64,000 bases of DNA from a virus. Below are positions 1 to 50,304 of this stretch, one piece after another. The notes under the pieces were generated by a model, which was not told the DNA's origin, made no database searches, and saw nothing but the letters and a program-made list of their open reading frames with translations. A program made the translations under genes and the position numbers. Positions within the stretch are counted from its first letter, which is position 1. Every line of letters begins with the position of its first letter. Location: positions 1-64,000 of IMG/VR virus record IMGVR_UViG_3300025645_000054; one strand, 5' to 3'.

Positions 1-2619
1 GTTGGCTGTGTCTGTTACGTCTGCGCCAGCTTCGATACCGTCAAGTTTGGATTCGTCTGCAACAAGGAAAGACGCCGTAGTGGCATTAAGAACAGCGCTA
101 TACCCTTGGACCGTGGAGCCAATTGCTGCGGGTTGAAGTGCGGTATCTGCCTTGGCTCCTTGAGCCGTAGTAGCCTTACCAGCAAGCGCTGTATCCAGAC
201 CTGTGACTTGGGCTGTTGTATGCGTGTGAGAAGATGCAGCTTTACCATTAAGCTGTGTCTGAATTGCGCTTGTCACACCATCCAAATAACCAGCTTCGAG
301 CATTGTAACTGCTACCGGCCAGTCACTGATTTCGCTGATTGGGTGGCTGTGTGCAGAAGGGGTAAACGTCGTGGGTTTACCTGTAACAGCAGTCCAAGAA
401 ACAGTGGTCAAATATCCTGCCAGAGAGTGATCACCCCACCCGAAGGCAGTATCCCAGTTTCCAGCGTTTGCTACTGAAGCTGTCGATGCCTTACCTGCCA
501 AAGAGTTGGTCATGGTTGTGGCAAAGTTAGGGTCATCACCCAAGGCCGCCGCAAGTTCATTCAGCGTATCAATGGTTCCGGGAGCGCCATCTACAAGCTC
601 CGCTACAACCGCCTTCACAAAGGACGTGGTGGCGATCTGTGTCGTGTTGGTGGTCGAGACCGCTGTGGGCGCTGTAGGCGTCCCTGTGAGCGCAGGAGAG
701 GCCAGAGGAGCCTTGAGAGCCAGAGCAGCATCAAGTCCTGTGACTTCGCTTGTAGGGTGACTGTGCGATACAGGAGTCCGTGCATCTGAAAGACGGGTAT
801 CGTCTCCTTTGACAACTTCTCCCACTGCTGCGTTTCCTGCTGCTGCCACATTTAGTGGAGCTGATGTACCAAGATCAGCAGGTTGTGTTGCGCTGTCAGC
901 CAATGCGCCTTGAGCTGTTGTTGCCTTACCGTCAAGTGCTGTCTGCAAACCATCCACATTTGAGATAACGTGATTATGGCTGTCATCCGCCACTGTCGCT
1001 GTGATGGTTACATTGCCGGAGCCATTGAACGAAGTGGAACCAGTGACATCGCCACCCAAAGCAATGGTACGAGCAGTTGCCAATGTCGCAGCCGTTGCAG
1101 CAGCCCCACCGTCAGCAGAGGTGATAAAGCCAGTGTCGTTGGTCAGAGTGGAGATTGCGTCTCCTGGCTGCGTGGCTGTGTCAGCTGTGGTACCCTGAGC
1201 CGCTGTTGCGTAATCCGCACTGGTGAATGCCTTGACCTGAGCAAGATTCGTGATCTCACTATCCATGAGTGCACCGGCAGCAGTGACGTTGACGGTATCA
1301 GTCACATCAGCTGAGGCTTCGATACCTGCCAGCTTCGACCTTTCAGTAGCTGTGAGGACTTTAGTGGTGGTTCCTTCCACCATGGCGTCCATCGAGAATG
1401 CGTCTCCAGCGACAGCGGTTGGGTCGTAAATACTCGCCAGCATGTCGCCAAATTGTGCCGCAGCGACCCCCGTCGAACCAGCGACGGAACCAAACTTATC
1501 AGATACAAAGAATTTGGCGTCGGCAGGATCAGACAGGTCTGTTGTGCCGCGTTTAACAATCAGAACACCTCGTCGCATCGCAGAGGTGAAACCGATGAGG
1601 TCAGGGAAGGTCGCAAGAGACAGACCCTCAATAGCTTCCTTCATTGTGTTGTAGGTGGCTGTTCCGAACTGCACGAACACCTTGTTTGCGTTTGCGAAGT
1701 ATAGGAACTGTTGAATGGCAAAATCGTTTACACCCACTGTAGCAAGATTGCCGGTTCCATCATCATAATTCAGAGGATTGATGGTGGTCACGGCAGCCTG
1801 AACGGAAGTTCCACCGCCCCCGTTACGGAATACGTAGCTAAATTGTGCGGGACTTAGTAATGCCGTAGTGATCCGATGAGGATCAGTCTTACTGGCAGCG
1901 GAATTACGGCCAAAGGAGAATACTGTACCACCACTCTTTGTCACAGACAGGTCTACGCCAGCCGCCGTAAAAGCATTACCGCTCAGATTGAGATCACCCA
2001 CTGCGCGGCTCAAGTCGCGTACACCAAGACCCGGCGCATACGAGGGGATCTGGATTGGGAATACGTTACGTATAGTCCCACCGACATGATCAACACCACC
2101 AAGTAGGATGTGGGTCCGCAGCTCATCAACTGTGAAGTTGCGCTGCTGAACAACTGCACCCGCTGCATTGATTGCAATGTCAGTCGAGGTTGCCGTTGCC
2201 AGATCGGTCAAGGTTACTGCCGAGAATGCTGTCCAAGTGACGGGAGTTACGGTTGGGGGTGAAACTGTGTCATCAATGACGTATCCAGAACCTGCCGAGA
2301 CATCGAGTTTAGTAGGATCTGCATTGATAGTGAGGACACCACCTTCGGTGATGCCTGTGTTACCGGTTACGCCTGCGAGCACCCCTTCGGCATCTGTTGC
2401 ATATGCAGACGCGGCCGTGGCCGCAGCTGTACCCAGTGTTGGCAATCCACTCAACTGACCGTAGTCGGAAACACCAAGAGTTTGGATCGCGCCCGCTTCG
2501 GTTTTGGAATAGATCCGGCCATCGGCCAAGTTGATGGCCAATTCCCCAGCGTCGAGATCACCCGGTAGCGGTGCCGCTGATGCGGTGCTGGATCTTTTGG
2601 GCTTGATCCTTGTGGCCAT
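1..2619 (-). CDS. tail fibre protein, partial (C-terminus beyond left edge)
   Basis: An open frame of 873 codons runs from the ATG at 2619 to base 1 without a stop, so the gene is truncated by the window. The first ~45 residues (KRSSTASAAPLPGDLDAGEL..., INLADGRIYSK) match the start of the next fibre gene upstream. The C-terminal third carries tail-fibre repeats such as SHSHPTSEVTGLDAAL, LTGTPTAPTA and TTQIATTSFV, typical of Phage_fiber_2-type and lambda Stf-like fibres. The start overlaps the preceding stop (TAATG). It probably contributes to receptor binding at the tail tip. The fibre class is well supported; the exact role is inferred. Confidence 0.85.
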   Translation of the reverse strand, partial: MATRIKPKRSSTASAAPLPGDLDAGELAINLADGRIYSKTEAGAIQTLGVSDYGQLSGLPTLGTAAATAASAYATDAEGVLAGVTGNTGITEGGVLTINADPTKLDVSAGSGYVIDDTVSPPTVTPVTWTAFSAVTLTDLATATSTDIAINAAGAVVQQRNFTVDELRTHILLGGVDHVGGTIRNVFPIQIPSYAPGLGVRDLSRAVGDLNLSGNAFTAAGVDLSVTKSGGTVFSFGRNSAASKTDPHRITTALLSPAQFSYVFRNGGGGTSVQAAVTTINPLNYDDGTGNLATVGVNDFAIQQFLYFANANKVFVQFGTATYNTMKEAIEGLSLATFPDLIGFTSAMRRGVLIVKRGTTDLSDPADAKFFVSDKFGSVAGSTGVAAAQFGDMLASIYDPTAVAGDAFSMDAMVEGTTTKVLTATERSKLAGIEASADVTDTVNVTAAGALMDSEITNLAQVKAFTSADYATAAQGTTADTATQPGDAISTLTNDTGFITSADGGAAATAATLATARTIALGGDVTGSTSFNGSGNVTITATVADDSHNHVISNVDGLQTALDGKATTAQGALADSATQPADLGTSAPLNVAAAGNAAVGEVVKGDDTRLSDARTPVSHSHPTSEVTGLDAALALKAPLASPALTGTPTAPTAVSTTNTTQIATTSFVKAVVAELVDGAPGTIDTLNELAAALGDDPNFATTMTNSLAGKASTASVANAGNWDTAFGWGDHSLAGYLTTVSWTAVTGKPTTFTPSAHSHPISEISDWPVAVTMLEAGYLDGVTSAIQTQLNGKAASSHTHTTAQVTGLDTALAGKATTAQGAKADTALQPAAIGSTVQGYSAVLNATTASFLVADESKLDGIEAGADVTDTAN

Positions 2620-14444: not shown

Positions 14445-17400
14445 TACATGGATCCTCCACTGATGGCCCGGATTAGCTGGCCAGTTGATCCATTCTTGGC
14501 GATGTCATCAGAGATGATGGCGATCATGTCATTCGGGCCCGGAACTGGTGCGCGAGAGCGCTCGTCCACCAACCACAGGTTCTGGTTCTGGCCGGGGCCT
14601 TTTGGCTTGGCCGCGCCCACGATCCCACCAGCGGCCTTGCGTTTGGTGTTGCCCATGGAGTTCAACCGATCCAGTTCTTCCCGACCAATCATCCGGGCAG
14701 CGGAGGCGCGGAGGACATACTCACCGGGCATCAACAGGTGAGGCTGGCTGTCCCGGGCGAGGTTACCCTCCACAGGACCACCGCCGGCCTTTCGGACCAT
14801 GCCTCCTTCTCGGGACCCCTTGAGGCCGTCAAGCATGTCCGAGATAAATCCACCGGCCGCTGACCCCTTGCCGAAGATGCTCATCGTGGCTTCGAGGGCC
14901 TTGATGGCCAGCATACGGGCGAAGACCTGCATCAGGCTCTGGACGACAGATGCAGCGAAGTCGCGGAAAGCATCCTTGCCGCTCTTGGTTCCGCTCACCA
15001 GATCGGTGAACAGGGTGCCAAAGCCTGTGAGGAGATTGTTCAGGACATCCTTGGTGCCCTCTTCCACGGTCTTGACGACCGAGAGAGACTCTTTGGACCA
15101 GTCCTTGATGACCTTGCTCAGGTCGATCTGGGCCATACCCTGCTTCTCTTTGAGCCAGAGGATATTCTCCTCTTCCTGTTTGATGAAGCTGGTCAGCTTA
15201 CCGTGCTGATCAAGGAGGGCGGTCAGGCGCTCTTCCTCGGCCACGGTGCGCGTGGTCTTGGCCGAGATCTGGTCGATCAGCCCCCGACGTTTTTCAAGCT
15301 CCGCATTCGCATCCTGCAGGGCCGACAGAATGGTCTCGAGACCCTGTCGTTCGTCCCCACCATTGTCGATGTCGATGGTCGCGGACCCGATGTCGTTCTT
15401 GATGCTGGCTAGCATCTTTTCGAACTCAGGGTCTCTCTTCTTGTGCTTCCGCCCTCCACGCCCGGGCTTCGCAGCTTTCTCAGCGGCGGCGGCGTCTTTT
15501 TCAGCCCGAGCGGCAGCACGGGCTCCGTAAACGACAAAGCCATCTACGAAGGTATCAAACCATGTGGCTGGGGCTCCTCCTCGACTCTCCTCCTGTTCCA
15601 GTTGGGTCAGAGCACCGGCGGCACCCACCTCGTCGCCAGCGAACTCTTCTCGGATCTCGGCGCGGGCTTTCTGGCCCTGAAAGGTGCGCATGAGGCTACC
15701 GGCCCGGGCCAGTTTACCCGCCAGTCGGCTGGCTGCGCTGACGGCTCTTTCGATGGGCCCCGCCAAGTTAAGATCTGAAATTTTCTGACCTTCGCGGAAC
15801 GCCGCCAGCAGTTCCTCTTTCAAATCCGCAGAGGCCTCACTGCTGTCCACAATCAGTTTATAGGCATCATACTCGGCCTCATTTCGGGCTTTCACGACCT
15901 GGAGATTATCTTCACCCAGGATCTTCGTCAGAAAGGCGACTTTGTTCTGGGCCTTCATGACCGCCAGTTTCTCCTCGGCCTCTTTGGTGTCCTCTTTAGC
16001 CCGGTTCTTAAATTTCAGATCCAGTAATTTTTGCATCTGAGCCAGTTGGTCCTCGACCAGAGCTCCCAGCCCCGCCGCTTCCATCGCGACGCGGACATGC
16101 TCTTTCTCGATGTCCAGCTTAGCTTGGGCCAGCTCACGGCTGTCAGCCTCATACTTGAGCTTGACCTCCTCCAGCTCAATTTGCTTTTCGAGCTCAGCTG
16201 TTTCTGCCGCTACCGCGTCGATGACATCCGTCACCCGATCAGTGGTCTTGTCCTGAATATCCGCCCCTTGGGCATCATAATCAGCATTGACCCCCAGCGC
16301 TTGTGCTGCCTGCAGATCGGCATCCCCTCCTGCGGCAGCAATCGCCTTGAGTTCCAGATCCCGAACAACCTCCAGCTGGTCCAGCTGTGCGGTCAGGGCG
16401 TTGGCGATCGCGGTGAAACCTTTGGCCTCACTGAGTTCTTTCCCCAGTTCCTCGAGCTTTTTCTTCGCGGCCTTGACGTCCTCCCCCGCGATCTTCTCAT
16501 TGACCGTGTCGGCTTCCTCTTTGAAACCTCGGAAGATGTTGAGCGCGGTACTCTCAGCTTCGTTGATCATCTGGGTGATGAGATCAATGTTTTCTTGGGA
16601 GGTGATGATGCCAGCATCTATCAGCATCTGCAGCGTCTGACGCTGCTGGTCGCTGTCTCGGTCAAAATTCGCAAAGCGCTGGGACACCTCTTTAAACCGC
16701 GCGTTAGCGGTTGTGCCTGAGATGTTTCCCCCGATCCGGGCTGCAACATCCGTATCTAGTTCAGAAGCGTCATCTATCAAGGTGGCAACTGCAGGGTTGC
16801 TTCGTTCCACCGCGGCTTCCCGCACCCGGATTTGTTCCTGCTTCTGCTGGATGTATCTCTCCAGATCTTGCAGCTGAGTGAAGGTATCCGCCGAACCATC
16901 TAGGATTGACTTTATGTACTCTGCCAGTACCCCCTGTACCCGATGGTTTATCCCAGTCTTGTCCCGGGCATTGGTTTCAAAATCCAAAAGGAGAGCGTTC
17001 AACTGTGACGTGGAGCTTCCCACCTGATTGGCAGAGGCCCCGGGAATAGCCAATGGTACAGCCAGTTTTTGGATATTCTTCAGCTGCGTAGACTGATACT
17101 GGGACGCGGAATTGTCCCTGCGAAGATCATAGGGAACCTCCATAACCGTTTTCTTATTCGCCTTCAGCCCTTGAGATAGAGTGTCCTGAGTGCTCTTAAT
17201 CAGCGTGTCCAGATCCCGGATCGACGTGTCCATTTCCAAGACAAACTTCTGAGAAAGTTCCTTTCTCAGGTCACGCATGGTCTTGATCAAATCAACGACT
17301 GTCGTCCCGACACTGTCGGCATCCTTGCCCATCTCGACGAACTGCCGCTGGACGTCTAGGATGGCCGACTCCAGGATAGCCCCGCCGCCCGAGAGGAGAT

Positions 17401-31393: not shown

Positions 31394-31858
31394 ATGGAAA
31401 AGACATTTTATCCCCCGCTTGAGGACAATGTGTTCTGGGCGATGAGCGTGATCCGGGAACACGTCTTGGTGGATCCCGATTACCTGGACAGCGACGAATG
31501 CACCTACCCGGAGGAGTTCAAGGACATCTTCCGGAAGGCCGGGGCGGGGGGAGGTGAAGAGGATGTGGTGCACAGCGATGACCTGTCCGACATCGATCTG
31601 GTGGCTGAGACCACGAGCCTGTTCAAGAACCTGAAGGAGGCCTCAGAGAACTTCTCGGCCACCGACCACTCGGAGCGGATGAGCTATTTCCGGACCTCAA
31701 CCTCTCTGCTCGAAAAGCTGATCGCCATGCAGGAGCGGGCGCACAATGTGCGTCAGGTCTCCCGGTTCTACGCCACCGTTCTGTCGGTGATGGAAGAGAC
31801 CCTTGAGCCTGATCAGATCACCCAAGTCCGCGCCCGCATTATGGAGCACACAGCATGA
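31394..31858 (+). CDS. helical protein, possible small terminase subunit
   Basis: 154 residues with an acidic N-terminal half and a helical C-terminal half: TDHSERMSYFRTSTSLLEKL, IAMQERAHNVRQVSRFYATV, LSVMEETLEPDQITQVRARI. The FRTSTSLLEKLI...V..F...VL.VMEE pattern resembles helical small terminase or packaging helper proteins in related phages. No separate small terminase is found beside the large one, so this is the best candidate, but it is unproven. Its stop overlaps the next start by four bases. Confidence 0.45.
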   Translation: MEKTFYPPLEDNVFWAMSVIREHVLVDPDYLDSDECTYPEEFKDIFRKAGAGGGEEDVVHSDDLSDIDLVAETTSLFKNLKEASENFSATDHSERMSYFRTSTSLLEKLIAMQERAHNVRQVSRFYATVLSVMEETLEPDQITQVRARIMEHTA

Positions 31859-34278
31859 ACGAGACAATTTTCGCCAACACCAGCGGTCCCTATTATGCCA
31901 AAGGCATGCCGGTCATCCCGCTGCATGTCCGCGAGAAGCGTCCGATCCCGCTGGACTGGTCCCGCTACCACAACCACGCGGTGGAGCCGGAACAGCAGGC
32001 CGAGTGGCAGCAGTCCTATGCGACCGGGAACATCGGTTTGGTTCTGGGCCAGCAGTCCGGGGTGGTGATGATCGACATCGACACCGAGGATCTGAACCTG
32101 ATCAAGATGCTGGAACAGATCCTGCCGCATTCCCCATGGAAGCGGATCGGGGCCAAGGGGATGGTGCTGGCCTACCGCTGGTGCGGGGTCCGGACCTTCC
32201 GGATCAAGGACTCGAAAGGGGACACGATCTGTGAGCACCTGTCGGACCGGACGCAGGTGGTGATCCCGCCCTCGATCCACCCGACGACGCAGAAGCCCTA
32301 TGTCGCCAACTGTGAGCTGGTGGATGTGCTCGACAGACTGCCGATCCTGCCCGAGGACATTGAGCAGATCCTGCGCGAGAGCCTGCGACAGGCCGGGGTG
32401 GAGCTGAGTGTCTCTGGCCGCAGCAAATCGACGGACTTCGTGTCCAAGGGGAGCCGGGATGTCACGCTGACGGAGATGGCCGGCCTGTTTGCCTATGCGG
32501 TCCTGCGCGGGGAGCGGTGCCTGATCGAGTCGGTCGGCATGCTGCGGTCCTTTGAGAGCGAGTTCGTGGAGAAGGTCGCCGGCGACGACATGGAAGCGCC
32601 AAAGCACGTCGACAACCTGTTGCGCTTCCTGCGCCGGGATGTGCTGGAGAAGGGCCGGATCCTGCCAGAAGGCTGGGATGAAGGCATGACGCAGCAGATG
32701 AAGGTCGAGTGGGGCGTCGACTTCGACAAGGATCAGGAGGAGTGGTCGTTCGAAGAGATGATCGACTTCCTCAAGAGCAAGTTTGAGGCCCACGCGGTGG
32801 AGTCCAAGGGCCGCGCCGATGCCGTGGAAAAGATCCTGGAGCGGATCGCGCGTCACGCCACGCTGTCCAAGTTGGATGAAGAGCGGCTGATGCAGTATAT
32901 CGTCGATGTCTCGGGCCTGCGCCTGAAGATGACGGCGTTGCGGGCGCGGATGCGTGAGCTGCGGTCGGGGGACATCGCCGGTCAGGACCACAGTGAGATT
33001 GCCAAGGCCGTTTTGGAGGATCTGGAGCAGATCCACGAGGTGCGCCGGTACGGGGGCTCGATCTGGAAGTATATCGGCTCTCATTGGGAGCAGATGGAGG
33101 ATGCGGACCTGATGGCGCGGGTGGCCCGGGACTATGGGCACCTCGACGCCGCGCGGCGGCACTCGGATCACCGTGGGATCTACGCGACCATGCTGAACCT
33201 CGCCGAAGAGGGTATTTGCCGGGATCCACAGCAGGGGGTGAACTTCGCCAACGGGTTCTTGAACGAAGAGCTCGAGTTGGTGCCCCATAACAGCGACTTT
33301 GGCATGGTTTACACCCTTCCCTTCCGGTATTTGCCCGAATTGAGCGGCAAATCGCACCAATTCTTCGAGTTTTTGGACGGTTGTTGGGGCAAAGATGTCG
33401 ACAAAATGGATAAAATAGCGGCCCTTCAGGAGGGTTTATGCGTCACTTTGTTTGGCATGGGGCCAGATTACCAGAAGGTGATGTTGCTCAAGGGCGTGGC
33501 CAAGAGTGGCAAAAGTCAGCTGCTGACCATCGCTCAGAGCCTTGTGCCCGATGATGCCAAGTGTTTTGTGCCCCCGCATGACTGGGCCGACCGCTTTTTG
33601 CCCACCCAGATGCATGGCAAGCTGATCAACATCTGCGGGGAGCTCTCGGAGAAGAAGAAGATCGATGGCATGCGGTTCAAAGACATCGTGGACGGGGCCG
33701 AGATGTCCGGTCAGCTGAAGGGGCGGGACATTTTCAAGTTCCGGCCGCGCTGCACCCACTGGTTCGCGTCCAATCACACGCCCAAGACTGAGGATTCCAG
33801 TGCGGGGTTCAATCGCCGCTGGCTGATCTTCGAGTTCAATCATCCGGTGAAGGCGTCGACCCGCAAGATCAACATCGGGGAGACGATCGTGGCCGAGGAG
33901 CGGGAGGCCATTGTTGCGTGGGCGGTGCAGGCCATGGCCCGTCTGAAGGACACCAATGAATACACCCTGCCGGCCAGCCACACCCAGTTGATAGAGGAGA
34001 TCGCTCAGGCGAACAATTCAGTACGTTTTTTTATCGAGACCTCGCCCAAACTGCATTTGGTCGGGGAGAGCTTGGGCCGCACATCCGAAAACAAGCTGTA
34101 CAAAGAGTACTGGAGCTTCTGTCTGGGACCGGGGGGTGCCAGGCCTGTGGGTTCGAGGCACTTCAGGGGGATGATGCGGGAACTGCAGAGCGAGAAGAAC
34201 TTCTCTTTGGTCCTCGAACGGACGCAGGTGGGAGCACAGGAAGCATTCTACGACGGGCTCACAGTTGCAAACGGCTGA
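31855..34278 (+). CDS. primase-polymerase / SF3 helicase
   Basis: 807 residues. The N-terminal Prim-Pol domain (residues 1-~190) has GMPVIPLHVREKRPIPLDWS, TGNIGLVLGQQSGVVMIDID with the metal-binding D-x-D, and VIPPSIHPTTQKPY. The C-terminal P4/D5-like helicase has Walker A GVAKSGKSQLL near residue 550, ELSEKKKIDGMRFKDIVDG, and the SF3 end motif HWFASNHTPKTEDSSAGFNR. It should prime and unwind phage DNA at the origin. The gene overlaps its upstream neighbour by four bases, so it belongs to the early operon. Confidence 0.92.
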   Translation: MNETIFANTSGPYYAKGMPVIPLHVREKRPIPLDWSRYHNHAVEPEQQAEWQQSYATGNIGLVLGQQSGVVMIDIDTEDLNLIKMLEQILPHSPWKRIGAKGMVLAYRWCGVRTFRIKDSKGDTICEHLSDRTQVVIPPSIHPTTQKPYVANCELVDVLDRLPILPEDIEQILRESLRQAGVELSVSGRSKSTDFVSKGSRDVTLTEMAGLFAYAVLRGERCLIESVGMLRSFESEFVEKVAGDDMEAPKHVDNLLRFLRRDVLEKGRILPEGWDEGMTQQMKVEWGVDFDKDQEEWSFEEMIDFLKSKFEAHAVESKGRADAVEKILERIARHATLSKLDEERLMQYIVDVSGLRLKMTALRARMRELRSGDIAGQDHSEIAKAVLEDLEQIHEVRRYGGSIWKYIGSHWEQMEDADLMARVARDYGHLDAARRHSDHRGIYATMLNLAEEGICRDPQQGVNFANGFLNEELELVPHNSDFGMVYTLPFRYLPELSGKSHQFFEFLDGCWGKDVDKMDKIAALQEGLCVTLFGMGPDYQKVMLLKGVAKSGKSQLLTIAQSLVPDDAKCFVPPHDWADRFLPTQMHGKLINICGELSEKKKIDGMRFKDIVDGAEMSGQLKGRDIFKFRPRCTHWFASNHTPKTEDSSAGFNRRWLIFEFNHPVKASTRKINIGETIVAEEREAIVAWAVQAMARLKDTNEYTLPASHTQLIEEIAQANNSVRFFIETSPKLHLVGESLGRTSENKLYKEYWSFCLGPGGARPVGSRHFRGMMRELQSEKNFSLVLERTQVGAQEAFYDGLTVANG

Positions 34279-34382: not shown

Positions 34383-34388
34383 GGAAAG

Positions 34389-34411: not shown

Positions 34412-34635
34412 GGTTTATTGTGGTTCATGGCAAAACTCAAAAATTATTGAGATATGTCAGTGGCATAGCAGGCTAAAGCCGTTGCCGATTGGTCAAAATA
34501 GGGGGTATGGTTGGACTAGGCCGGGTGGCTAGGGCGCAGTGTGTCCTTTTTGCAACACCTCCCGCGCCTGCCCATTGGCCCTAGGGCCGCACCCAAACTG
34601 CGCAAGTTGCGCAATTATCCAAGTAGGAACACAAG
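34412..34635 (+). other. non-coding leader region with palindrome
   Basis: 224 bases with no convincing gene; a short frame starting at a GTG near 34539 reads through the next gene in another phase and is a shadow. The one clear element is the palindrome TGCGCAA-G-TTGCGCA at 34599-34613, a member of the TTGCGTAA-S-TTACGCAA family, 23 bases before the next start codon. Confidence 0.6.
34598..34614. promoter_or_regulatory. palindrome family member 1 (TGCGCAAGTTGCGCA)
   Basis: A 15-bp perfect dyad at 34599-34613. It differs from the main family consensus by having C/G in place of T/A in both arms, which preserves symmetry, and so points to selection for the dyad. It sits just upstream of the gene at 34636. 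Confidence 0.6.
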
Positions 34636-35487
34636 ATGACCAACAAGCAAACAACCACCGCATTGACCGCCTATACCGCTTCACATATCGAATCCGCGTC
34701 CAAAGCCAGCGTTCAAGCGGTCTGCGCTATGATCCTTTGGGGCGCGCATAACCCCGGCGAGTGGATTGAAACCGTATCTGGCAAAACGCCTAAGGCGTTC
34801 AAGGCGTTCAAAGTATCCATTGAAGCCACGGCCGGCGCGGACCGGACGCGTCAGGTAGTGACCGTTGCCAAGAAAGCCTTTGCCTTGCTGGCAGGCGTGG
34901 CAGGCAATGAAAAGGCATTGCGGGACGACGCCGCTATGCGCAAGGACGTGGCTGACCTTTGTAACCGCCTTGTTACATCGTTTGCGGGGCTGACCGTAGG
35001 TCAGGCGATTGAGTCCGACACTGGCCTTTTCACAATGGTGACTGGTGCAAGCGCTGATAGCATGGCTGGCATCAAGGCGGCATATAGCGCGGCCCTTGAC
35101 GCTGATACGCCTGCAGAAGCGCCTGCACCTGCACCTGAATCGGTTGACGTGACCGACGCGGACGCGGACGTTGACGAAAGCCAAGCAACCATTGCCATGG
35201 ATACCAAGTCAGGCGCGAAAAGCGCGATAGATGACGCCATTGCCTTGCTTGCTAGTGTTGTCGCGCATGGCCACGCCGATCAAGCCAGCGCCAAGGCAAT
35301 CAAGGCAATGGCTGACTTTATTGTTCAGGCGGGCAAGCCAAGCGCCTTGCTCTATGCCTTTGACCAATTGGTCGCGGATGCGGCCGATGACATCCCGCGC
35401 TTGGAAGGCATGGTAGCCAGCACGTCCGAGGCGCTGGCAGAGAGCAAGGTGCAAACATGCGGCCCGATTCCCGCAATGGTTGGATGA
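34636..35487 (+). CDS. hypothetical Ala/Asp-rich protein
   Basis: 283 residues. MTNKQTTTALTAYTASHIES starts a helical domain with GKTPKAFKAFKVSIEATAGA and LAGVAGNEKALRDDAAMRKD. A linker AEAPAPAPESVDVTDADADV follows, then a second helical domain (ALLASVVAHGHADQASAKAI). Gly, Ala and Pro codons look different from the neighbours: GGC, GCG and CCT rather than GGG, GCC and CCC. The gene stands alone between a terminator and a hairpin with its own palindrome upstream, so it may be a separately acquired unit. Not recognised. Confidence 0.7.
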   Translation: MTNKQTTTALTAYTASHIESASKASVQAVCAMILWGAHNPGEWIETVSGKTPKAFKAFKVSIEATAGADRTRQVVTVAKKAFALLAGVAGNEKALRDDAAMRKDVADLCNRLVTSFAGLTVGQAIESDTGLFTMVTGASADSMAGIKAAYSAALDADTPAEAPAPAPESVDVTDADADVDESQATIAMDTKSGAKSAIDDAIALLASVVAHGHADQASAKAIKAMADFIVQAGKPSALLYAFDQLVADAADDIPRLEGMVASTSEALAESKVQTCGPIPAMVG

Positions 35488-35502
35488 ATCACAAGCCCAT
35501 GG

Positions 35503-35524
35503 GGCGTGGCAGAAATGCCACGCC
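35503..35524 (+). terminator. GAAA-loop hairpin after the 283-residue gene
   Basis: GGCGTGGCA / TGCCACGCC, a perfect 9-bp stem closed by a GAAA tetraloop, 16 bases after the stop. The T-rich run follows only after about ten bases, so it is either a weak terminator or a transcript-stabilising 3' hairpin. Confidence 0.6.
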
Positions 35525-35539
35525 TAGGGTGATATTTTT

Positions 35540-35559
35540 ATCACACCGATCGGTGTGAT
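35540..35559. promoter_or_regulatory. perfect 20-bp palindrome
   Basis: ATCACACCGATCGGTGTGAT is fully symmetric without a spacer. T-runs on the left and A-runs on the right extend the symmetry past one mismatch. There is no U-tract after it in either direction. The form fits an operator for a dimeric repressor such as TetR-type proteins; the binding protein is unknown. Confidence 0.65.
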
Positions 35560-35582
35560 CAAAATGTCACTATTTCTTCGCG

Positions 35583-35648
<66 letters not shown>

Positions 35649-35662
35649 TAGGCCCGGGCCTA
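35649..35662. repeat. 14-bp palindrome TAGGCCCGGGCCTA
   Basis: A perfect palindrome that begins two bases after the CCCGCG array and is followed by a TATATACGCGCG segment. It could be part of an origin or an operator. No function can be assigned. Confidence 0.6.
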
Positions 35663-35735
35663 TATACGCGCGTCTACGTGTAGGCCCGCGAGGTTTCTTC
35701 TTAAGAACGCGACCCTCAGTAATTTGAAAATGTTT

Positions 35736-35752
35736 TTGCGTAAGTTACGCAA
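35736..35752. promoter_or_regulatory. palindrome family member 2 (TTGCGTAAGTTACGCAA)
   Basis: A perfect 17-bp dyad with a single central base, 20 bases before the small gene at 35773. Confidence 0.65.
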
Positions 35753-35772
35753 TTTTTCCGGGAGCCAAAACC

Positions 35773-35922
35773 ATGTGGCAGCTACTTTCCATCCGCAAAA
35801 ATTTCTACGAGACCGAAGAAGTCCTCGTGTGGATCAAGTCCAAGGAGGCAATCCTGCCCCTGATGGACCTCTTAGGGGTCGATGCCGCCACCCTGAGACC
35901 CCTACCTACGAGCGAGGGCTGA
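35773..35922 (+). CDS. 49-residue small protein
   Basis: ATG at 35773 after CGGGAGCCAAAACC. It reads MWQLLSIRKNFYETEEVLVW and IKSKEAILPLMDLLGVDAAT, then LRPLPTSEG, a compact amphipathic sequence with normal codon use. A longer overlapping frame from 35724 to 35960 is Arg/Pro-rich and looks like a shadow. The palindrome just upstream suggests its own control. Unknown function. Confidence 0.65.
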   Translation: MWQLLSIRKNFYETEEVLVWIKSKEAILPLMDLLGVDAATLRPLPTSEG

Positions 35923-36243
35923 GGGGCGTTTGCAGCTTTAAGAAGAAGGCTGTTTCCTAAGAAGTTGTGTGGGCCTCGGCAAATGCAACCTGTAGCGGGT
36001 ACGGAGTTAACATAATAAAGGACTTTTCGGCCTTATTTTTGGGGTGGGAGAGTGATTTGGAGTTTGTGCAAGCGAGAGTTGCATTGTTTCTTTTCAATGG
36101 CTTAGGGCCTTGGGCGTCGGTTTTGCCTGTCAAGTAGATTTTGGCCCTTGGCCAGTAGGGTCCGCATTCAGCGGGGTATAACCCATTGATTTCAAATCGA
36201 ACTTTGGACGTTTCTATGCAATCTCTTCTTATTTTTCTTTCTT
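35923..36243. other. non-coding region, AT-richer than surroundings
   Basis: About 320 bases without a credible frame. I see TTAACATAATAAAGGAC near 36007, a pyrimidine-rich run at 36222-36243 that can pair with the purine-rich run just downstream, and TTTCTATGCAATC near 36211, a weak relative of the CATTTCCATGCAAT motif. No gene is called. Confidence 0.55.
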
Positions 36244-36352
36244 AAAAGTGGGATAGAAAGAAAGAAGTAAAGAGAGGAAGGGAATTTGGAGATTGCTGGG
36301 AAAAGTAAATATTTTAGTTAGAGAAATTTCACTTCTCTTCTATCCCGCTTTT
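36244..36352 (+). other. long inverted repeat (structured element A)
   Basis: AAAAGTGGGATAGAA at 36244-36258 pairs with TTCTATCCCGCTTTT at 36338-36352: 15 bp with a single U-G pair. AGAAGT at 36263-36268 pairs with ACTTCT at 36331-36336, extending the stem past a bulge. A competing 9-bp hairpin TTTCTTTCT (36234-36242) / AGAAAGAAA (36255-36263) uses the same bases, so two exclusive folds exist. The interior is purine-rich. It may be a regulatory RNA, an attenuator or an origin element. Confidence 0.55.
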
Positions 36353-36355
36353 GAA

Positions 36356-36446
36356 ATTGTCATCCGTGACAGGCCAGTCTGGTCCGGTGTGGGTTTTGTT
36401 CCACCCTTGGGCCACCGGAGTACTCTGGCCTGTCTCGCGTGACAAT
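36356..36446 (+). other. multi-stem inverted repeat (structured element B)
   Basis: Nested pairs: ATTGTCA (36356-36362) with TGACAAT (36440-36446); GACAGGCCAG (36368-36377) with CTGGCCTGTC (36425-36434); TCCGGTG (36383-36389) with CACCGGA (36413-36419). Side hairpins TGTCA-TCCG-TGACA on the left and TGTC...GACA on the right could replace the outer stem, giving a cruciform. It lies four bases after element A. No known riboswitch or tRNA pattern is recognised. Confidence 0.6.
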
Positions 36447-36484
36447 AGGTTCCCTTGGCCCCCGTCCAAGATCCTATCTCGACC

Positions 36485-36669
36485 AAGACCCTAGACCACG
36501 ACCCCGATCCGAGAGGATTTCACGACCACGACCACGACCCCGATCCAAGATTGCGTAAGTTACGCAATTCCATTCCGAGAGGAACTCAAGACCCTAGACC
36601 ACGACCCCGATCCGAGAGGATTTCACGACCACAACCCAAGATTGCGTAACATTCCGAGAGGAACTCAAG
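36485..36669 (+). repeat. duplicated leader (two ~100-bp direct repeats) before the endolysin
   Basis: AAGACCCTAGACCACGACCC and the following ~45 bases occur at 36485 and again at 36588. Each copy carries a GAGA-loop mini-hairpin (36507-36518 and 36610-36621), a TTGCGTAA element (full dyad at 36550-36568, half site at 36642-36650) and the TTCC-GAGA-GGAA hairpin (36573-36584 and 36652-36663). The second copy lacks about 13 bases of the dyad and leads into the start codon at 36670. CACGAC triplet-like runs suggest slippage. Confidence 0.85.
36550..36568. promoter_or_regulatory. palindrome family member 3
   Basis: TTGCGTAAGTTACGCAA with an extra A/T pair, a perfect 19-bp dyad. It lies in the first copy of the duplicated leader; the second copy keeps only the left half. 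Confidence 0.65.
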
Positions 36670-37023
36670 ATGCTTTTACTATGCCTAGCCCTCAATATCT
36701 ACCACGAGGCCCGAGGGGAGCCGATCACAGGCCAGGAGCTGGTCGCCTCTGTTACGCTGAACCGCGTAGCAAGCCCCCTATACCCCGACAACGTCTGCGA
36801 TGTGGTCTACCAGCCCCGCCAGTTCGCATGGACCGCAGACCCACCCCCAGTGACCGACACGCAGGCCTTCTACACGGCCCTGATGATCGCATGGGATGCC
36901 CAACCCATCAACGAGGCCACCCACTTCTACAGTGGCCCTGCGCCCTATTGGACGCGACACCCAGATTTTCAACTTGTCGGCCGCGTTTCTGGCCACACCT
37001 TTTACAAGGAGACACGCCCGTGA
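36670..37023 (+). CDS. SleB-type cell wall hydrolase (endolysin candidate)
   Basis: 117 residues: LNIYHEARGEPITGQELVAS, VTLNRVASPLYPDNVCDVVY, QPRQFAWT. This is the Hydrolase_2 (SleB/CwlJ) pattern, with catalytic Glu in HEARGE. No signal peptide is clear, although the start MLLLCLALNIYHEA is hydrophobic. It is the only evident lysis enzyme in the window, and no holin is recognised nearby. It begins after the duplicated leader with a GAGA-loop SD hairpin and heads the long plus-strand array. Confidence 0.85.
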   Translation: MLLLCLALNIYHEARGEPITGQELVASVTLNRVASPLYPDNVCDVVYQPRQFAWTADPPPVTDTQAFYTALMIAWDAQPINEATHFYSGPAPYWTRHPDFQLVGRVSGHTFYKETRP

Positions 37024-38456: not shown

Positions 38457-38802
38457 AAATGAAGTCGATCTATCGGTGTTGAGCCGTGACCGTCAACTAC
38501 TGCCTCATCCAAAGTTCACGAACTATTTGATCAGTGATCGGGGGGATGTCGTTACCCTATTCTTCAAGAAGCCTCGACTCCGCAAAGGCTCCAAATCCAA
38601 AGACGGGTATCTGGTGGTTTCCATATCGGTCGAGCACCAGCGGGTTGTATCCCGCCGGATCCACAGGCTCGTGGCCGAAACCTTCATCCCTAATCCAGAG
38701 AACAAACCCTGTGTCCGTCATCTGGATGGGGACAAAACCAACAATCGCGTCCCCAACCTTGCTTGGGGGACCCACGCCGAAATGGAAGAAGGAATTGCGT
38801 AA
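38446..38802 (+). CDS. HNH endonuclease (homing-type)
   Basis: 118 residues. The NUMOD4-like start [20 protein letters not shown] is followed by the HNH_3 core: [40 protein letters not shown]. Such stand-alone genes are mobile in phage genomes. The end (HAEMEEGIA) is short compared with typical family members, so it may be slightly truncated. Its stop codon lies inside a TTGCGTAACTTACGCAA palindrome. Confidence 0.85.
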
Positions 38803-38814
38803 CTTACGCAATTC
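38792..38814. promoter_or_regulatory. palindrome family member 4 (23-bp perfect dyad)
   Basis: GAATTGCGTAA-C-TTACGCAATTC is the longest and most perfect member of the family. It overlaps the HNH stop codon and precedes the gene at 38848 by 34 bases. Confidence 0.7.
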
Positions 38815-41612: not shown

Positions 41613-41633
41613 AATTGCGTAACTTGCGCAATT
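41613..41633. promoter_or_regulatory. palindrome family member 5
   Basis: AATTGCGTAA-C-TTGCGCAATT, symmetric except for one pair. It lies in the 73-base gap before the gene at 41679, upstream of a C-rich tract and the GTGA-loop SD hairpin. Confidence 0.6.
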
Positions 41634-49096: not shown

Positions 49097-49414
49097 ATGC
49101 TTACAACTTCCGATGTCGCGGGCCGGCTGAACGTCAGCTCCCGTACCGTACAGCGCCTCATCCAAAGTGAGGGGTTGCCAGCGTTCCGCATCGGAGGGCA
49201 TTATCGCTACGTCGAGCAGGAGCTCGATCGTTGGCTAGTCCGTAAACGTATGAGGACCACATGGAACAAGGACAAGGTCGCGTCTACACGCGCCCCGAGA
49301 GCAGGTCATACTGGATCGAATATAGAAGTTCTGACGGACGGAAAATTCGAAGATCTGCTAAAACCCAAGACAAGAAAGAAGCTGAAGCCGAGCTGGGAAG
49401 GCTCCTTCGGTTGA
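49097..49414 (+). CDS. excisionase / MerR-type HTH protein
   Basis: 105 residues. The N-terminal ~52 residues are an HTH_17 domain: LTTSDVAGRLNVSSRTVQRL, IQSEGLPAFRIGGHYRYVEQ, ELDRWLVRKR. The rest is translated from DNA that also encodes the integrase N-terminus in another frame and looks basic and unstructured. It is the likely recombination directionality factor for the adjacent integrase. The 154-base overlap is unusually long. Confidence 0.75.
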   Translation: MLTTSDVAGRLNVSSRTVQRLIQSEGLPAFRIGGHYRYVEQELDRWLVRKRMRTTWNKDKVASTRAPRAGHTGSNIEVLTDGKFEDLLKPKTRKKLKPSWEGSFG

Positions 49415-50304
49415 GGACCTCGATTTCCTTCAAAGAGGCGGTCGTGGACTTCTTCGAGGTGAATGGCCACGGGCGTCTCAAGCCCAAAACCATTCAGAAC
49501 TACGAAACCTCTCTCAGAGCGGTGGCTCCACTTTTTTCAGAATTGTCTTTGGACGAGATCCGAACGGATCAGCTCAAACAATTGGTACGTGAACGGCGCA
49601 AGACTGTGTCGGACACATCTGTGAAGAGGGATCTCGCTTTTGTCTCAAGCGTGTTCAGTCATGCAATTGGGACCATGCCGCAGGCACCGGAAACTAACCC
49701 TGTTCTTAGCTTCAGTAAACGTCACCTAAAGGAACAGGCAAGAACCCGGTGGCTGCGGCCGCACGAGTATGATCGGCTCATTGAGAGCTGCCAAAACCCC
49801 ACACAAGCACTGGTCATCAAGACCGCAACCCTGACCGGGATGCGGCACACTGAGCTGTCCAGTCTCCGGAAGGGGATGATCAATTTTCAGAAAAAGGAGG
49901 TCATACTAGATGTTGATCTGACGAAGAACGGAAAGGAGCGGGTCGTACCCCTCTGTGCGTCACTGTGTTTCGACCTGGAACAGCTGTGTCTACGAACACC
50001 GGGGGATTTAGTGTTCTGCTATATGCATGGCGCTACCCGGGAGTGGAGATCTTATCAGAATTTCTCCAACTTCTGGGATGGTGTTCGAACCCGAGCCAAC
50101 TTGAAAGATGTGAGGTTTCACGACCTTAGGCATACTTTCGCCTCGTGGTGGGTACAGGCAAATGGGGATCTGCTGCGACTGAGGGACATCCTCGGACACA
50201 GCTCTCTCCAGATGGTCCAGCGGTATGCCCACCTGAACACAGGCGGGCATCACGCGGAGATAAACGAGGTGTTCGAAACACACTTTGCACACAGCCTCGA
50301 ATAA
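49261..50304 (+). CDS. int: tyrosine integrase
   Basis: 347 residues with an N-terminal arm-binding region (GRVYTRPESRSYWIEYRSSD), a SAM-like core-binding domain (~55-155) and the catalytic domain. Catalytic residues: R195 (TGMRHTEL), K222 (TKNGKERVVPL), H287 and R290 (FHDLRHTFAS), H313 (LGHSSLQM), Y322 (VQRYAHL). GAGGACCAC precedes the ATG. attP lies right after the stop, the usual arrangement. It integrates the phage into a tRNA-Lys gene. Confidence 0.95.
   Translation: MEQGQGRVYTRPESRSYWIEYRSSDGRKIRRSAKTQDKKEAEAELGRLLRLRTSISFKEAVVDFFEVNGHGRLKPKTIQNYETSLRAVAPLFSELSLDEIRTDQLKQLVRERRKTVSDTSVKRDLAFVSSVFSHAIGTMPQAPETNPVLSFSKRHLKEQARTRWLRPHEYDRLIESCQNPTQALVIKTATLTGMRHTELSSLRKGMINFQKKEVILDVDLTKNGKERVVPLCASLCFDLEQLCLRTPGDLVFCYMHGATREWRSYQNFSNFWDGVRTRANLKDVRFHDLRHTFASWWVQANGDLLRLRDILGHSSLQMVQRYAHLNTGGHHAEINEVFETHFAHSLE

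Follow-up and report, generated by a model that had tools for sequence, protein, structure and literature searches.

Two large inverted-repeat structures occupy positions 36222–36446 of a phage sequence, in DNA that seems to encode nothing, and they raise the question of what a phage would use them for. The window analyzed here, 64,000 nucleotides long, comes from a virus record of 76.8 kb. Both structures lie in a gene-free interval between a 49-aa ORF that ends at 35922 and the next gene, which begins at 36670; we found no convincing ORF in between, as had been supposed when the structures were first noticed. Their components are as follows:

36222–36242 / 36255–36275, plus strand: arms of the pyrimidine/purine hairpin of Element A (P1)
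36244–36258 / 36338–36352, plus strand: arms of the long-range inverted repeat of Element A (P2), with an A/T-rich 79-nt loop
36356–36446, plus strand: Element B, a three-stem imperfect inverted repeat with the loop TTTGTTCC and the bulge TTGGGC

In P2 the strand AAAAGTGGGATAGAA can pair with the downstream strand TTCTATCCCGCTTTT, 79 nt away, through 15 base pairs including one U-G pair. The purine continuation of the AAAAGTGGGATAGAA strand competes for pairing with the upstream pyrimidine tract (36222–36242 with 36255–36275). Both the 15 pairs and the competing hairpin were found where the original prediction had placed them, and the two stems are mutually exclusive. The arms of Element B (36356–36389 and 36413–36446) comprise 34 nt each, and their stack of stems closes on an 8-nt loop and is interrupted by a 6-nt bulge. 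The predicted fold consists of nested stems of 8, 2, 10, 2, 7 and 4 pairs; the stems of 7, 10 and 7 pairs described previously are included in them. For the segment 36215–36450 (236 nt) the folding energy is -87.0 kcal/mol, compared to -61.5 ± 4.7 kcal/mol for shuffled sequences (z = -5.43), and none of 200 shuffles was as stable. Both large hairpin structures are real and exceed what is expected by chance.

The window phage is a JWF/Seuss-like phage: its primase and large terminase are homologous to those of this group, and their genes are arranged divergently, as in JWF. Genes for a large terminase (phrog_675), a portal protein, a Prim-Pol primase, a helicase and a DNA polymerase were identified. 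The primase is 55% identical to those of the Achromobacter phages JWF and 2-1 and the Xylophilus phage Lumi, 45% identical to that of the Caulobacter phage Seuss and 33–35% identical to those of the Acinetobacter phages EAb13, fJoAci01, fJoAci04, TCUP2199 and Mystique. The large terminase shares 42–47% identity with its counterparts in JWF, 2-1, Lumi and Seuss. Three genes define the surroundings of the hairpins:

31855–34278: primase gene (Prim-Pol)
34636–35487: 283-aa gene, inside the predicted terminal repeat
36670–37023: SleB-like cell-wall hydrolase gene, the first gene past the hairpins

For seven relatives the genome ends are recorded (JWF, 2-1, Lumi, Seuss, EAb13, fJoAci01 and fJoAci04). 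Their long direct terminal repeats, of 1466, 1542, 1748, 2177, 2182, 2238 and 2298 bp, begin shortly after the primase gene. When the primase is read on the plus strand, its gene is followed by the terminal repeat, then by the right boundary and the rightward genes. The ends were called from sequencing reads, by PhageTerm for Lumi and EAb13 and by PAUSE for Seuss; the records of fJoAci01 and fJoAci04 name PhageTerm as well. The ends of JWF and 2-1 were taken from database records, in which we found no end-calling method.

In 7/7 relatives, a large inverted repeat encloses the right terminal-repeat boundary. A scored test with JWF, 2-1, Lumi, Seuss, EAb13 and fJoAci04, representing four separate lineages, placed the right boundary within such a repeat in 6/6 cases and the left boundary in 0/6; of the positions in the scored stretches, 4–12% fall inside such repeats. 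Relative to the right boundary, the arms are located at -48 to -29 and +54 to +73 in JWF, at -46 to -28 and +17 to +35 in 2-1, at -91 to -78 and +8 to +21 in Seuss and at -125 to -87 and +2 to +40 in both EAb13 and fJoAci04. The repeat of Lumi (-86 to +80) is weak, with a score of 14.0 that the threshold of 14 just admits. The seventh phage, fJoAci01, agrees: its repeat is as in the other Acinetobacter phages and its end lies at the corresponding base. The portions of the publications on Seuss, Lumi, EAb13 and TCUP2199 at our disposal make no mention of inverted repeats at the genome ends.

Elements A and B are located 1.96–2.1 kb past the end of the primase gene. Since the known genome ends of the relatives are cut at the corresponding position, within large inverted repeats, 36222–36446 is probably where a long direct terminal repeat has its inner (right) boundary, i.e. 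a packaging terminus. A flip of the GC skew at this site and the type of the large terminase (phrog_675; that of JWF is annotated as SPO1-like) speak for this reading as well. Among the functions proposed earlier (regulatory RNA or attenuator, replication origin, packaging site), the packaging site is thereby favored and the attenuator disfavored. We infer from the same homology that the window phage itself would carry such a repeat, with these elements:

34438–34475, plus strand: counterpart of the left-boundary motif, CAAAAATTATTGAGATATGTCAGTGGCATAG, with a predicted cut at roughly 34455–34475
34460–36350, plus strand: predicted direct terminal repeat of about 1.8–2.0 kb, with its position after the primase and its size as in the relatives

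The left end may be indicated by a motif. In JWF, 2-1, Lumi, Seuss and EAb13 the A/T motif CAAAAATTTT, also given as (C)AAAAATTTT, stands a short distance before the left boundary, and it is recognizable after the primase gene in many related loci. The window has a degenerate variant, CAAAAATTATTG, at 34438, and the left cut would lie within the interval listed above. At the right end we place the boundary within 36222–36446 and do not choose a base. The end sits in an A/T-rich inverted repeat in Seuss, Lumi and the Acinetobacter phages, whereas in JWF and 2-1 it sits in a G+C-rich one, with an A/T-rich one 360–540 nt further on. In the window and in the related locus L003, an A/T-rich inverted repeat (A) is followed directly by a G+C-rich one (B); by comparison, JWF and 2-1 have their two repeats in reverse order and widely separated. 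No second copy of the terminal repeat was seen in the record of the window, which counts against the proposed repeat; assemblies collapse such repeats. The boundary structure could offer a way of locating, from sequence alone, the genome termini of metagenomic phages when assembly has collapsed their terminal repeats.

The contig ends of five relatives likewise contain no second copy of the terminal repeat; only 127-bp identical ends occur in two of them. For TCUP2199 (ON323491; L086, L087) 127-bp "repeats at both ends" are published, and its record begins within the region matching the 2177-bp terminal repeat of EAb13. The two metagenome contigs with identical 127-bp ends are G001 and G005 (L088, L089, L096, L097). 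These 127-bp ends look like assembly overlap. The two ends of the window's own record contain near-identical stretches (window positions 1–738 versus record positions 75772–76713; 97.6% over 248 bp and 92.9% over 224 bp). They are apparently repeats of a tail-fibre-like gene, and the record may be broken there.

To what extent is the architecture conserved? A search with four aligned primases yielded 64 related viral loci. Inverted repeats with an A/T-rich loop are present 1–5 kb past the primase gene, mostly at 1.8–4.7 kb, in 24/41 related loci, compared to 1.5 loci in local dinucleotide shuffles (largest value 4 in 24 shuffles). Their total number is 31, against 1.7 ± 1.2 in the shuffles, and 499 kb of upstream control sequence contained just 3. 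The arms reach 24 perfect pairs (L032), 29 nt (L027) and 63 nt (L054). Their sequences are mostly unrelated across lineages, including the relatives with recorded ends, whose arms are unrelated to those of the window; arms are shared between close relatives, for example L016 and L020. P1-like hairpins were found in L003, L005, L013, L016, L020, L022, L026, L030, L060 and Lumi. No DNA similarity of the hairpin region to named phages was found. Mismatches within the arms of the A/T-loop repeats are G-T in 33 and A-C in 26 cases (115 and 120 for all scored repeats). These similar counts give no sign of family-wide selection on one RNA strand, as expected for repeats that act at the DNA level.

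In L003, whose primase is 76% identical, both elements occur at the same place, and the DNA matching the hairpin region folds with a z-score of -7.0. Element B (14834–14927) has the same architecture, largely different stem sequences and nearly the same loop (TTGTTCCT with the bulge TTGGGC). The pyrimidine hairpin of Element A is kept in L003, and the long-range stem is weaker. In locus L005 (62%) an A-type structure is present (AAGTTTAAGGGGTCTACTTTT / GAAAGTAGACCCCTGAGACTT), and no Element B was seen there; B was found in two lineages only, those of the window and of L003. The check for lost pairing in related phages, set earlier as a refuting condition, thus did not refute the interpretation, with the pairing of B kept in L003 and the architecture of A recurring widely. 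An alignment of the two sequences with RNAalifold put the stems out of register and was left out. Outside the lineages of the window (L002/L007) and L003 (L009), the loop pattern TTGTTCCnCCCTTGGGCC gave three matches in the viral-contig collection (L006, L008 and L010), which lie in coding-looking DNA without stems and were taken as chance. Element B could be a packaging or regulatory signal that is read by its structure, as RNA or as a single-stranded DNA hairpin, with free stems and a fixed loop TTGTTCCnCCCTTGGGCC, although we regard this as doubtful. If true, B would be a signal at the terminal-repeat boundary that is recognized by the phage terminase or by replication proteins.

The same features have a bearing on an RNA function, in which A and B would be part of a structured non-coding RNA or 5' leader within a transcript of ~500 nt from the gene-free region and B a conserved RNA motif controlling right-arm expression or assisting packaging. 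The segment 35920–36460 (541 nt) indeed folds well (z = -4.86), as does that of L003 (z = -5.52), and the shape of B is maintained even though its stems, but not its loop, have changed. As plus-strand RNA, Element B has a folding energy of -50.8 kcal/mol in both species and is less stable as minus-strand RNA (-47.0 and -41.3 kcal/mol), a difference too small to decide the matter. No Rfam family scored above the gathering threshold in the 64 kb, and a relaxed threshold gave only weak chance matches. Together with the family-wide arms without RNA-strand bias, the limitation of B to two lineages and a downstream gene that is not conserved, this makes an RNA function unlikely.

We consider a replication origin, i.e. 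an A/T-rich, hairpin-rich site for unwinding or primosome loading, to be improbable. It would agree with the local A/T dip in most relatives, with the primase gene 2 kb away and with a flip of the GC skew from +0.11 to -0.22 across 36.0–37.0 kb (sign change at ~36.25–36.5 kb), on both sides of which the genes are on the plus strand. The cumulative skew, however, reaches its maximum at the hairpin site, and by convention such a maximum marks an end or terminus rather than an origin. In addition, the recorded physical ends of the relatives lie in such repeats. The two readings are not exclusive, as hairpin-primed copying is itself a kind of replication start. That the structures attenuate or terminate transcription before the cell-wall hydrolase gene, as the mutually exclusive stems upstream of it might suggest, is very improbable, because A and B contain no terminator-like site (a G+C-rich stem with a T run; such sites were found only at 34386 and 35736) and the gene after the structure in L003 and L005 is not the hydrolase. 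The "endolysin array" that had been assumed to follow the structures is not evident either; there is a single SleB-like hydrolase.

Two further candidates were rejected. A protelomerase telomere of the N15 type was discarded, since the record has no match to PF16684 and the arms are imperfect and 12–79 nt apart. An attachment site was set aside, as the sole tyrosine-recombinase gene is located at 49.7 kb:

49261–50304, plus strand: tyrosine recombinase (PF00589, E = 1.6e-30)

Its presence hints at a phase that is temperate or plasmid-like, or at a function in dimer resolution.

To our knowledge, synthesis of the second repeat copy in phages with kilobase-long terminal repeats is poorly understood outside T7. 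For the packaging terminus at 36222–36446 we tentatively propose, as the likeliest mechanism, a T7-like duplication of the terminal repeat through a snap-back hairpin. The inverted repeats would act as DNA at the mature end that carries the primase followed by the terminal repeat. The concatemer would be nicked just beyond an inverted repeat, and the freed 3' arm would fold back onto the other arm and prime synthesis. A polymerase could then copy the terminal repeat in the leftward direction, displacing a strand that would provide the neighboring genome with its own repeat copy. Finally, the terminase would trim the hairpin end at the right boundary and cut the other end at the left sequence motif. 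Snap-back duplication predicts just such a restriction of inverted repeats to one of the two boundaries. This one-sided arrangement, kept in Achromobacter, Xylophilus, Caulobacter and Acinetobacter phages while its sequence turns over, makes the model specific and testable.

Known systems show similar traits. T7 and T3 also have direct terminal repeats with inverted repeats at one repeat edge, a trait present here by homology with the relatives, and for T7 concatemers a hairpin that includes the terminal repeat has been reported (Chung and Hinkle 1990, as cited in PMC4281155). In a control scan of T7, the best inverted repeat (GTCTTTGGGTGT / ACACCTAAAGAC) spans the terminal-repeat end (-38 to +87), and another lies 91–129 nt before the terminal repeat. 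The T7 repeat has 160 bp, in contrast to 1.5–2.3 kb in the relatives of the window phage. The latter is a relative of siphovirus type whose terminase is a different one, and its hairpin intermediate would be hypothetical. The Bacillus phage SPO1 resembles it in its long, exact direct terminal repeats (13.2 kb) and in its related large terminase; that of JWF is annotated as similar to SPO1 gp2.11. The repeat here would be ~7 times shorter, and the SPO1 boundary is not inside an inverted repeat; our control scan found a perfect 15-bp inverted pair 65–135 nt beyond the repeat end. Both control scans are suggestive rather than conclusive. For N4, inverted repeats at the genome ends were proposed to prime synthesis from hairpins (PMC3896407), but those repeats are at variable-length ends with 3' extensions. 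A further likeness is to JWF, 2-1, Lumi, Seuss and EAb13/fJoAci01/fJoAci04, in which the primase gene is likewise followed by the terminal repeat, by its boundary within an inverted repeat and by rightward genes.

Several other repeats were observed close to the hairpins. Upstream of Element A a conserved motif is located:

36147–36190, plus strand: motif TTGGCCAG-GGG-CAGCG

The motif around TGGCCAG-GGG-CAGCG is also present in L003 (14601) and in the distant loci L020 (15460) and L021 (15463). Four copies of a 17-bp palindrome, TTGCGTAASTTACGCAA, were found (35736–35752, 36551–36567, 38795–38811 and 41615–41631; shuffle expectation 0.00), two of which flank the hairpin structures. Other palindromes are found in the same region of relatives (AACTATCTGATAGTT in L020, TTGCGCACNNTGCGCAA in L003). 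The TTGCGTAASTTACGCAA palindromes look like putative operator sites of a phage regulator. About ten GCGCCC units are situated at 35590–35650, in the gene-free stretch that separates the 283-aa gene from the structures. Just past Element B, at 36484–36636, two 50-nt direct repeats are 98% alike and 103 nt apart. They consist of CGACC-rich units together with CCGAGAGGA copies, and L003 has similar CCGAGAGGA repeats ahead of its genes.
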